Below, piece by piece: positions 18,611 to 22,929 of a stretch of 64,000 nucleotides of DNA. Both the position numbers and the translations under genes were made by a program. The stretch is from Alphaproteobacteria bacterium. Its GTDB lineage: Bacteria; Pseudomonadota; Alphaproteobacteria; JANQMY01. The stretch is taken from contig JANQPL010000004.1 of the NCBI GenBank assembly GCA_028289425.1, forward strand, positions 558,001-622,000. The letters are read 5' to 3'. How positions within the stretch are numbered: position 1 is the first letter of the stretch; each line of letters starts with the position of its first letter. The notes beneath the pieces are model-generated. The model ran no database searches. It worked only from the letters and a program-made list of their open reading frames with translations, and had not been told where the DNA came from.

Positions 18611-18830
18611 GCCAGTTACCTCATCACCAAGGCGTCATGCCAGGACTTGTTCCTGCCTGCCTTCGCCGAACGACCCGTCGCCCGAAGGGCTATGGCCCGC
18701 AGGGCGAAGCTCTGCTTCGCGCAGGCAGGGCATCCAGAGCCACCGGCTCCGAGCCCATCATTCTTGTAAGAGTATCTTCGCCCTGGATCCCAAGAACGCG
18801 CTGGCGCGCGCCTTGGGATGACGGTGTAAG
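18611..18830. repeat. Intergenic palindromic repeat mosaic
   Basis: This non-coding segment separates the sulfatase and redoxin genes, which converge. It has nested palindromes: CCTGCCTGC (18652) with GCAGGCAGG (18721), enclosing GCGAAGC-TCT-GCTTCGC (18704-18720). A second hairpin, ATCCCAAG/CTTGGGAT with a GC-rich centre, lies at 18787-18819. The phrases CTGGATCCC and GGGATGACG recall dispersed repeats in related genomes. It may also serve as a bidirectional terminator. Confidence 0.65.
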
Positions 18831-19928
18831 TTAAGGCTTCCAGGGCTCGCTGTAATTCTCCGCGCCCTCTTTACGCACATCCGTCAGCCAGTCCCCTTCA
18901 TAGGGCCAGACCTCTGGATTGTCGTCGGACGGTCCCTGCCAGAAGCGCTTCAGCGGCCCTTCGGCGCCGCCTTCCAATGACCAGGCCTGACGCCGGAACG
19001 TCCAGCTGTCGGGCACCAGGCGGTGGGCTTCACGGAAGTGGGTGATGGCCGCTTGGTGGTCGCCCTGCTTTTCAAGCTCGGTCGCGAGTTCGAAATGGGC
19101 GTGACCCAACGCTGAGTCCGCAGTGCGCGGGCGCGACCGTTCGATCACTTCCTCGGGCGTGTGGGCGAATGCGCTGGCAGCGCCCTTCTCAACCCAATCC
19201 TTGAGAGCGGCGTGATATTCAGCGGGGCTTGCCTGAATCTTCATGGCTTCCGCACCCATCTCCAACAAACGTTGGGGCAGATCGCCCGTCGGCGGTTGGA
19301 AACCGGGCGTATCGGTGGGCGGTGCGGGCGCTGCTTCTGCCGGACGCACGATCATGCCTTGTTCGTCAATCCAGAGGCTGCTCGGAATGTTGATGACGCC
19401 AAACAGATTGGCCATGGCGTGGTGCTCATCGATGAGCGACGGATGGTCCGGATTGGCCGCTTCGATGTATTCGCGGCAGCCGGCGGCGCCTAAAACGTCC
19501 AGGCCGACCGTGACCAGCTCAAATCCTTTGGGCTTCAGGTCGGTGCGGAGGGCCTGCCACACGGGCAGGTCACGAGAGCAGCCTCAATAGGGTGCCCAGG
19601 CATAGAGCAGGACTTTCTCCCCGCGCAGACTGTTCAGCTGGAACATATTGCCGTCGAGATCCGGCAGGGTGAGGTTCGGGGCTTCGGCGGTTGTCAGCGC
19701 ACGGGCGCCTTGTGATTCCGGGCCGATCGCCCAGAGATCTTTGCCGTCTGCTTTGACCAGGGGCAGGCCCATGGTGTCGGCCAGTTCTTGAATGTCTACC
19801 GTGTCGCCGTTGAGACTGTCCGGCAGAGGAATGCACACATCGCCTTTGCACGCGCCTTCCGGTTTGAATTGCCAACCGGTCGCTTCTTCAAAGTCGCTTC
19901 GTTTGATGTGTTTGGACGTGCTGAGCAT
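18831..19928 (-). CDS. Predicted selenocysteine-containing ResA-like redoxin (in-frame TGA)
   Basis: Two open frames, 19584-19928 and 18831-19562, lie in the same reading frame with one TGA (19584-19586) as the only stop. Read through, they give a 365-residue protein. The TGA is codon 115 in WAPY-TGA-GCSRDLP, aligned with the first Cys of the thioredoxin-type WAxWCGxC active site. A hairpin fitting a bacterial SECIS lies just downstream. The redoxin fold spans about 85-200 (NLTLPDLDGNMFQLNSLRGE, then IPSSLWIDEQG). A C-terminal TPR-like region (LGHAHFELATELEKQGD) follows. A second Cys sits at 117, and Cys27/Cys32 form an N-terminal CX4C. Without recoding this would be a truncated pseudogene, but the frame downstream is fully intact. 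It is probably a cytoplasmic thiol or peroxide reductant. Confidence 0.82.
19553..19586 (-). promoter_or_regulatory. SECIS-like hairpin after in-frame TGA
   Basis: In the mRNA, the UGA at 19586-19584 is followed by 14 bases and then CCUGCC-CGUGU-GGCAGG, a perfect 6-base-pair stem with a 5-base loop. The loop begins 20 bases after the UGA and has G as its second base. Published bacterial SECIS models ask for a loop 16-37 bases downstream with a G among the first two loop bases, so this hairpin qualifies. Confidence 0.7.
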
Positions 19929-20047: not shown

Positions 20048-20638
20048 TTAGCCAAGCTTTTCCTCGGCAAGCGTCCGCAGCAGGTCGAGAACCAGCTCCT
20101 CATGCCCCATCTCACCGCTGTCCGGTGTCACCGCCCGCCCCAGCGCCATGCCGATCATCGCCTCAACGATCAGGCGGTAGACGGCAGTGGCTTCTTTGCT
20201 GCGGCCGATGCGGCCGACGAGTTTCGGATTGGACGCCGGGTCGAAAACGTCTCTGAATTTCTCAATGACCGGGCCCAGCCGTCCGGCCAAGGTGGGATCG
20301 TTGCGCGCCGCGAGCCAAATCTCGATCACGGCCTTGAAGTCCCGGCGGGAAACATTCCGCCAGGCGCGGCTTACCAGATCTTCTTGGCTGTCGGCGGCGA
20401 GGCCGCTCTCGACCATGTCGGTGAAAAGTGCAGTCAGCGCTGCGCCAAGCAGGTCGGCCAGGTCCTCGAAGTGATGGAACAGCGCGCCGCGTGTCACATT
20501 TGCCCGCTTGCACACCTCAACCGCCGTTGTCGCCGCGTACCCTCGATCCACAAGCGAGCTGATGGCGGCTTCGATCAAGCGCGCCCGCATGGCGGCGGAG
20601 CGGGCTTCTTGGGTGCGGGGGGAGGCTTCAATCGTCAC
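20048..20638 (-). CDS. TetR family regulator
   Basis: This is a 196-residue repressor-type protein. Its N-terminal helix-turn-helix runs through LIEAAISSLVDRGYAATT and VCKRANVTRGALFHHF, the usual TetR pattern. The C-terminal ligand domain is divergent. An upstream ATG at 20680 would put the start inside the operator palindrome, so I chose the GTG at 20638, which leaves a normal short N-terminus; an internal ATG at 20590 is less likely. It is divergent from the molybdopterin oxidoreductase gene and the shared region has a perfect palindrome, so it probably represses that operon and itself. Confidence 0.85.
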   Translation of the reverse strand: MTIEASPRTQEARSAAMRARLIEAAISSLVDRGYAATTAVEVCKRANVTRGALFHHFEDLADLLGAALTALFTDMVESGLAADSQEDLVSRAWRNVSRRDFKAVIEIWLAARNDPTLAGRLGPVIEKFRDVFDPASNPKLVGRIGRSKEATAVYRLIVEAMIGMALGRAVTPDSGEMGHEELVLDLLRTLAEEKLG

Positions 20639-20665
20639 AAAATGTCCATCAACGGGATTTCTCAC

Positions 20666-20694
20666 TTTACATACATACATAAATGTATGTAAAA
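20666..20694. promoter_or_regulatory. TetR operator between regulator and molybdoenzyme
   Basis: TACATACAT-AA-ATGTATGTA is a perfect palindrome with 9-base arms (20672-20691) embedded in a repeated ACAT/ATGT tract. An overlapping register gives 11-base arms, TTTACATACAT and ATGTATGTAAA. It resembles AcrR-type operators and lies 28 bases upstream of the TetR start and 43 bases upstream of the molybdoenzyme ATG. Confidence 0.8.
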
Positions 20695-20736
20695 GGTCAA
20701 GAAATAAATGCCGGTAACGACCGAAAAGGAAGACCC

Positions 20737-22929
20737 ATGGCGCGTGTAGAAGAAAAAACAGTTTTGTGTGCCAGTTGCGATATTGCCTGTCAGTTGAGGG
20801 CAGAGGTGACCGATGGACGGGTGACCAAGATCAAGTCCCACTACAACCCGCTGCTCAAAGATAATATTTGCATGAAGGGCATTTATGCGCCCAAAGGGTT
20901 CGCCCATCCGGACCGGGTGCTCTATCCGCTGAAACGCAAAGGCGAACGCGGGTCCGGCGAATGGCAGCGTGTGTCTTGGGATGACGCCATGGGCGAAATC
21001 ACCGACCGGCTGAAGAAAGTGGTCGACACTCACGGACCGGAAGCCCTCGCCGTTTCCACAAGTCAATGGAACACGTCGACTGAAAGCGGGGCCGGCCGCC
21101 GCTTTATGAACCTGCTTGGGTCACCCAATTGGATCAGCGGGGTGGCCCTGTGCGCGGGCAATACGGCAGCCGTCAATCGCATGGTGTACGGATGGTTTCC
21201 GTTCCCAGATTTCGCGAGCTCCAAATGCATTGTTCTGTTTGGCCACAATCCAAAGCGTCACAGCTGGACGCCGATTTACAATTCGATCCGCAAAGCTCAG
21301 CAGGACGGCGCAAAGCTGATCGTTCTCGACCCGCGTCGCAGCGAAAGCGCGGAACGGGCCGACATTTGGTTGCCGCTCAAAGCGGGCACCGATGCGGCCA
21401 TGTGCCTGGGCTGGCTCAACGTTATCATCAAGGATGAGCTTTACGACAAAGAGTTCGTGGCCAAATGGACCCATGGCTTTGACGAGTTCGCTGCGCGCGT
21501 GGCGGACTTTCCACTGGAGCGGGTCGCGGAAATCACCGGTTGCGAGCCGGAGATGATCGCGGAAGCGGCGCGCCTGTACGCAACCCATGGACCTTCGGTT
21601 ATTCCGTGGACCCCCATAACCGACCAACAGCGCAACAGCACATCGGCCATTCGACTTCATGCGTCGCTGCGGGCCATCTGCGGATATCTGGATGTGCCGG
21701 GGGGTGAGGGCCTGTCGGGCTTCCCGAAAGACATCATCCCAGAGACAGTGATCGAAGGGCATGACCTTTTGTCCGACGAGCAGAAGGCCAAGCAGCTGGG
21801 GTCGGATACGCATCCGGTCTTCACCTATCGCGGCACCGCGGCTTTGGCGGCGCCCACCAGAAGAGCGTGGGGCCATGAATATGCGAACATCGTCATGGGC
21901 AGCTATATGGCGAACCCATCGGCTACATTCCGGGCCATGGCCGACGGTGTGCCCTATCCGGTGAAAGCGTTCATCGTGCTCGGCAACAACGCGATGATGA
22001 GTTACGCGAATATGGAACTCATTTATCGCGGCCTGATGAATCAGGATCTGATCGTCGCGCACGAACATATGAAAACACCCACGGCGCAACTGGCGGATTT
22101 CATTCTGCCGGGCGACAGCTGGCTCGAGCGGAATCACATGCTGGACGGCTATGGCTGGTCGAATGTGGTGCGCACGTCCGAAAAATCGATGGAGCCACCC
22201 GGCGAATGCCGTGGCGTTTATGAGTTCTGGCGGGATCTCGCCCATCGCTTCGGCTTTGGCAATCAGTTTCCATGGAAGACGGTGGAAGAGCTCTACACCT
22301 ATCGTTTGCAAGCCACAGGCATGACGTGGGAACAGTTTGTGGACACTTATGAAATGTATTTGCCGGAACCGAAATTCAGAAAATACGAGGAGAACGGGTT
22401 TGCCACGCCCACCGGCAAAGTGGAGCTGAAATCAACCATTCTCGAAGATCTGGGCTTCGATCCGCTGCCCTATTGGCGGGAAGAGCCTGAAGCAGATCCG
22501 GACTATCCACTGCAACTGTTCACGGGCGTGCGCGAAGATGAGTTTTTCCAGACCGGTCAGCGGTTCATTCCGGAACTGCGCAAGCGCAAGCCCGACCCGC
22601 AAATGTTCATCAGCGCGGCCGATGCGGAAGAATGGCAGGTGGTGGACGGCGATTGGGTCGATGTGCATTCCAAGAGTGGCAAAGTGCGCTTGCAGACGTC
22701 GATTCGGGACGACATGCCCAAAGGATTAATCCGTGTGCCCCATGGCTGGTGGAAACCGGAAATGGAACAGGGCATCAAGGGCGGCCTGTCGGGTGTGTGG
22801 CTTCATTCGGACGCGCAAGTCTGTCCCGACGATGACGATTTCCTCGACCGCGAGCAGGGCATTCCGCACTTCAAAGGCATCCCCGCCCGTATTGTGAAAG
22901 TGGCCGATCAGAGGGCGGCGGCAGAATGA
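20737..22929 (+). CDS. Molybdopterin-dependent oxidoreductase (DMSO reductase superfamily)
   Basis: This 730-residue enzyme binds bis-molybdopterin guanine dinucleotide and one iron-sulfur cluster. The N-terminal cluster ligands are C11, C14, C18 and C45 (CASCDIACQL, DNICMKG). The likely metal ligand is Cys139 in GVALCAGNTA, where formate dehydrogenases may have selenocysteine. The C-terminal cofactor-binding domain begins near TPTGKVELKS. There is no Tat signal, so it should be cytoplasmic. I chose the ATG at 20737 because AAGGA lies 7-11 bases upstream; an in-frame ATG at 20683 sits inside the operator. The substrate is unknown. It overlaps the next gene by four bases (ATGA). Confidence 0.9.
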   Translation: MARVEEKTVLCASCDIACQLRAEVTDGRVTKIKSHYNPLLKDNICMKGIYAPKGFAHPDRVLYPLKRKGERGSGEWQRVSWDDAMGEITDRLKKVVDTHGPEALAVSTSQWNTSTESGAGRRFMNLLGSPNWISGVALCAGNTAAVNRMVYGWFPFPDFASSKCIVLFGHNPKRHSWTPIYNSIRKAQQDGAKLIVLDPRRSESAERADIWLPLKAGTDAAMCLGWLNVIIKDELYDKEFVAKWTHGFDEFAARVADFPLERVAEITGCEPEMIAEAARLYATHGPSVIPWTPITDQQRNSTSAIRLHASLRAICGYLDVPGGEGLSGFPKDIIPETVIEGHDLLSDEQKAKQLGSDTHPVFTYRGTAALAAPTRRAWGHEYANIVMGSYMANPSATFRAMADGVPYPVKAFIVLGNNAMMSYANMELIYRGLMNQDLIVAHEHMKTPTAQLADFILPGDSWLERNHMLDGYGWSNVVRTSEKSMEPPGECRGVYEFWRDLAHRFGFGNQFPWKTVEELYTYRLQATGMTWEQFVDTYEMYLPEPKFRKYEENGFATPTGKVELKSTILEDLGFDPLPYWREEPEADPDYPLQLFTGVREDEFFQTGQRFIPELRKRKPDPQMFISAADAEEWQVVDGDWVDVHSKSGKVRLQTSIRDDMPKGLIRVPHGWWKPEMEQGIKGGLSGVWLHSDAQVCPDDDDFLDREQGIPHFKGIPARIVKVADQRAAAE

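Follow-up and report, generated by a model that had tools for sequence, protein, structure and literature searches.

The candidate selenoprotein gene lies on the reverse strand of the window (the whole stretch of 64,000 nucleotides that was analysed), and its features are compiled in Table 1. With TGA read as selenocysteine (Sec), the frame from 19928 to 18831 contains a single TGA, at codon 115, and then runs to its TAA stop; the active-site string at the TGA is WAPY-U-GCSRDLP, with WAPYUGC at residues 111-117. Upstream of the ATG, two codons are followed by an in-frame stop (116 codons before the TGA), and the ATG is therefore regarded as the natural start. Downstream of the TGA, 250 codons follow; an earlier, sequence-only reading of this DNA had rightly described the C-terminal frame as open, but its figure of 243 codons counts from an internal GTG (19560-19562), eight codons past the TGA, which opens a 243-aa ORF.

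A TetR-type regulator (20048-20680, reverse strand) is located directly upstream of the gene on the same strand; a molybdopterin oxidoreductase of the formate dehydrogenase/thiosulfate reductase superfamily (20683-22929, forward strand) scored under every curated cut-off shown. The intergenic region between a sulfatase gene and the selenoprotein gene (18655-18830) contains pieces that are repeated elsewhere in the genome, as stretches of ca. 75-97 nt with 89-96% identity at seven further sites, while different portions of it recur at more. Across the homologous loci no conserved gene neighbours were found; the clusters common to most loci were antisense ORFs overlapping the gene itself, and the widest other neighbour cluster (ca. 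400 aa) occurred in 8 loci, at varying positions and mostly on the opposite strand. Since no neighbour is conserved, no operon partner is claimed, and nothing outside the protein indicates its substrate or reductant.

Table 1. Coordinates of the candidate selenoprotein gene and its predicted features within the window.
Feature	Position	Strand	Details
Predicted selenoprotein gene	18831..19928	-	365 codons including Sec115; ATG start 19926-19928; TAA stop 18831-18833
In-frame TGA, predicted Sec115	19584..19586	-	First active-site residue of the thioredoxin fold, WAPY-U-G-C
Cys117, partner residue at U+2	19578..19580	-	Invariant in the alignment
Predicted SECIS hairpin	19553..19569	-	6-bp stem CCUGCC/GGCAGG; apical loop CGUGU (19559-19563)
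Thioredoxin/AhpC-TSA domain	19347..19688	-	Residues 81-194; PF00578; best fold matches: ResA crystal structures
C-terminal helical tail	18831..19274	-	Residues ca. 219-365; TPR-like repeat 277-307; helices in the AlphaFold model
N-terminal Cys pair C27-x4-C32	19833..19850	-	Invariant, 44/44

The domain structure of the read-through protein is continuous across the TGA. Pfam AhpC-TSA and Redoxin were its top domain matches, and AhpC-TSA, aligned over residues 81-194, reached 45.1 bits for the joined sequence, compared to 19.3 and 14.3 bits for the separate halves; the coordinates and motif given in the sequence-only reading, which had proposed one gene running across a TGA at a thioredoxin active site, were correct. 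The redoxin with a TPR-like tail that it had described was also recovered, with TPR_2 at residues 277-307 scoring 24.7 bits, just under the cut-off of 27; the N-terminal region with C27-x4-C32 had no Pfam match of its own. An AlphaFold model of the read-through protein, computed from 38 family sequences with Sec written as Cys, reached a mean pLDDT of 94.8 and a pTM of 0.92, and in this model the thioredoxin fold has its first long helix (116-134) directly after residue 115. Among solved structures the domain matched ResA best (E = 7.3e-11), and by sequence 3kcm and 4nmu. Residues C27, C32, 115, G116 and C117 are invariant across the family alignment, and the C-terminal part is conserved downstream of the TGA, with W245, G249, F279 and R313 invariant. 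No hydrophobic export signal was evident at the N-terminus when judged by eye without a predictor, and the protein is for this reason most likely located in the cytoplasm.

The domain matches leave two kinds of chemistry to be weighed. A selenoprotein that acts chiefly as a peroxiredoxin-like peroxidase, and not as a disulfide oxidoreductase, would agree with the leading position of AhpC-TSA and Redoxin among the domain matches, and with the name Prx-like that the 2008 survey gives to this class (PMC2398784). This possibility is rated as the less likely one, as the active site aligns with the WAxxC of ResA/TlpA instead of the peroxiredoxin TxxC, ResA and further thiol-disulfide oxidoreductases gave the best structure matches, and the peroxiredoxin motif PxxxTxxC/U is absent around residue 115. 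A cytoplasmic Sec/Cys thiol-disulfide oxidoreductase is the best reading of the protein, and disulfide-oxidoreductase chemistry appears reasonably probable.

The read-through protein belongs to a family that is defined by its Sec motif. It matched the NCBIfam equivalog model NF041054, "ResA-like WAxxUGC motif-containing protein" (WAxxUGC_long), with 492.7 bits at a cut-off of 300, from residues 1-363 of 365 to model positions 1-352 of 354. Homologues were collected from a genome-contig scan that yielded 35 loci, and from a search of 142 related genomes that yielded further copies; after the window's own copy was left out and repeat views of one locus were removed, the active-site codon could be read in 44 homologues. 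It was TGA in 43 and TGC in one; homologues ending at this position, which would have pointed to a genuine stop, were sought and none was found. The open frame after the TGA extended for 209-287 codons in the homologues, and for 57 codons in one (L009) where the contig ends. The sole Cys form, in a Verrucomicrobiaceae assembly (L057:3001-4086), carries the string WASWCGC and scored 514.6 bits against NF041054, above the Sec form of the window. The U-G-C spacing, with Cys at +2, had been taken for a peculiarity of the window's copy; all homologues examined have either U-G-C or C-G-C, and this spacing is thus the family norm.

The assemblies that contain these homologues are labelled Gammaproteobacteria, Acidimicrobiia, Chloroflexi, Acidobacteria, Verrucomicrobia and Binataceae; some of these labels look doubtful. 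Family members were also present in assemblies titled Klebsiella pneumoniae, Bifidobacterium breve and Rhizobium (L038, L051 and L065, respectively); these members are close to those of uncultured bacteria, and the metagenome-bin labels look doubtful. Phylum-wide, at E <= 1e-40, the family was found in 2 of 398 genomes, the window's genome and one other; the family is rare across the phylum, and this search added no further Cys forms. A second member occurs in the same genome as the window (L068:5727-6707, reverse strand, contig C14); it is 37% identical, has its TGA in YASWUGC, and is a divergent copy with a shorter tail that reached 276 bits against NF041054, under the cut-off of 300.

A bacterial SECIS element is a hairpin a short distance downstream of the TGA, whose apical loop carries a G close to its start. 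The hairpin downstream of this TGA has both properties; its stem starts at the 15th nucleotide after the TGA, and its loop CGUGU follows 20 nucleotides after the TGA. The SECIS-like hairpin noted in the sequence-only reading is thus present, although its support comes from comparison and not from energy. The single-sequence folding energy is ordinary compared to shuffled sequences (z = -0.09), and the energies of Sec and Cys versions alike were not distinguishable from shuffles; the energy is therefore excluded from the evidence. Across 41 distinct Sec sequences, 96.7% of the cells of the hairpin were paired, and shifting the partner by 1-3 columns lowered the pairing to 67% or less; the covariation score was reached by none of 500 shuffles, in a comparison that ignores sequence kinship. 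The pair 19/33 has changed on both sides (C-G to U-A) in 9 sequences. It joins position one of a Leu codon to position three of a Gln codon, where both changes are silent; of the sequences with Leu and Gln, 34 of 35 are consistent with pairing (29 with CTG and CAG, 5 with TTG and CAA, and one with TTG and CAG; Fisher P = 1.8e-5, relatedness ignored), and the remaining doubly changed rows are Arg CGA forms that belong to one close group. Codon choice follows the hairpin as well: V123 is GTG in 37 of 37 sequences and P122 is CCC in 27 of 30. Of 146 conserved columns, these loop and stem codons are surpassed in uniformity only by the TGA itself; the top-codon share of residues with at least four codons has a median of 0.52. 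The Cys form has lost the hairpin codons and reads GGC GCG ATC TGG GCT. In three divergent homologues (L067, L069, L070) the outer pairs of the stem do not form, and an Rfam scan of the region returned only chance matches. By comparison across the homologues, the hairpin is predicted to be the SECIS element, and the analysis supplies a clear comparative SECIS for the NF041054 family.

These comparisons bear on two readings that do without selenocysteine. The TGA could be a true stop that ends a 114-residue protein, with the downstream frame started separately at the internal GTG, which yields the 243-aa ORF. Such a break would interrupt the thioredoxin fold at the catalytic position itself; both the Pfam domain and the NCBIfam model extend across the TGA, the identical TGA layout recurs in 43 of 44 homologues, the GTG serves as the conserved codon for V123 within the loop of the predicted SECIS, and the Cys version reads straight through. 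On these grounds the reading as two genes is rejected as very improbable. A pseudogene or sequencing error, in which a stop mutation has replaced a Cys or Trp codon and the C-terminal part is in decay, is more improbable still. A nonsense mutation or an erroneous base would by itself produce an in-frame TGA, but 43 of the 44 other homologues, drawn from many separate assemblies and different phyla, have TGA at this codon, which refutes both possibilities, and the C-terminal part with its invariant residues is open, conserved and folds in the read-through model, in agreement with the view of the sequence-only reading that a decayed pseudogene was unlikely.

The genome that contains the window also encodes the machinery for selenocysteine insertion. 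The selA gene (580.7 bits) was found on contig C19, together with tRNA-Sec (anticodon TCA), selD (341 bits, cut-off 125) and selB (300 bits, cut-off 242), so that selC, selD, selA and selB form one cluster. Among the 142 related genomes, selA occurs in 19, including all seven genomes that carry the family (G000, G001, G028, G067, G081, G092 and G094); the co-occurrence has P = 2.5e-7 by counting alone, with kinship ignored. The full set of selA, selB, selD and tRNA-Sec, which the sequence-only reading had named as a check, together with the NF041054 match and the recurrent TGA, bears out its proposal of a probable selenocysteine redoxin. Judged from sequence evidence, the gene at 18831-19928 is predicted to encode a selenoprotein in which TGA specifies Sec in a thioredoxin-like active site, with a probability of about 0.95. 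If TGA is treated only as a stop, annotation would cut this gene short, or divide it in two, at the codon for the catalytic residue.

For the predicted Sec/Cys oxidoreductase, the following sequence of events is proposed. The hairpin just past the UGA would recruit SelB and Sec-tRNA, so that Sec is inserted at position 115 and translation continues through all 365 residues. Sec115, located where the first long helix of the ResA/TlpA-like fold begins, would attack a disulfide or a peroxide; Cys117 would then close a selenenylsulfide with Sec115, to be reduced either by the C27-x4-C32 pair or by an external thiol system. Binding of a partner or substrate is the probable role of the helical, TPR-like tail. 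Recycling of Sec115 by a C27/C32 relay is a tentative proposal, and so is its extension, that C27-x4-C32 may be a built-in relay for the Sec115-Cys117 bond and the protein a self-contained two-site selenoenzyme, with the tail for a specific partner. To our knowledge, no U-x-C redoxin has been described with a relay of this kind through a built-in Cys pair; a concrete hypothesis for how such a redoxin could be recycled follows from the invariant N-terminal Cys pair.

The known thiol-disulfide oxidoreductases ResA and TlpA are membrane-anchored and extracytoplasmic. The predicted selenoprotein shares their fold and the position of the catalytic residue, and scored 59.8 bits against the ResA model; in contrast to the CxxC of ResA/TlpA, it has UxC, with Ser replacing the usual second Cys, and it also differs from them in its extra N-terminal Cys-pair region, its helical tail and the lack of an evident export signal. 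The literal name of the NF041054 family found no match in open papers. In 2008 the Global Ocean Sampling study listed 46 sequences of UGC-containing Prx-like selenoproteins (PMC2398784); the class appears again in passages of the review PMC9312934, and an excerpt of the review PMC13188914 lists a "UGC-containing TlpA disulfide reductase family". The passages of the literature found on the UGC-containing class state no function for the family and describe no domain layout. As far as these partial sources describe it, the Prx-like (UGC-containing) class shares with the gene at 18831-19928 an AhpC-TSA/TlpA-type domain, the UGC motif and Sec at the first active-site position; by motif and domain, NF041054 is likely the same group. 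To NF041054 itself, the gene corresponds over its full length and with the same Sec motif, and shows no notable difference; it is a further example of a family already catalogued in other bacteria, and not a novel kind.
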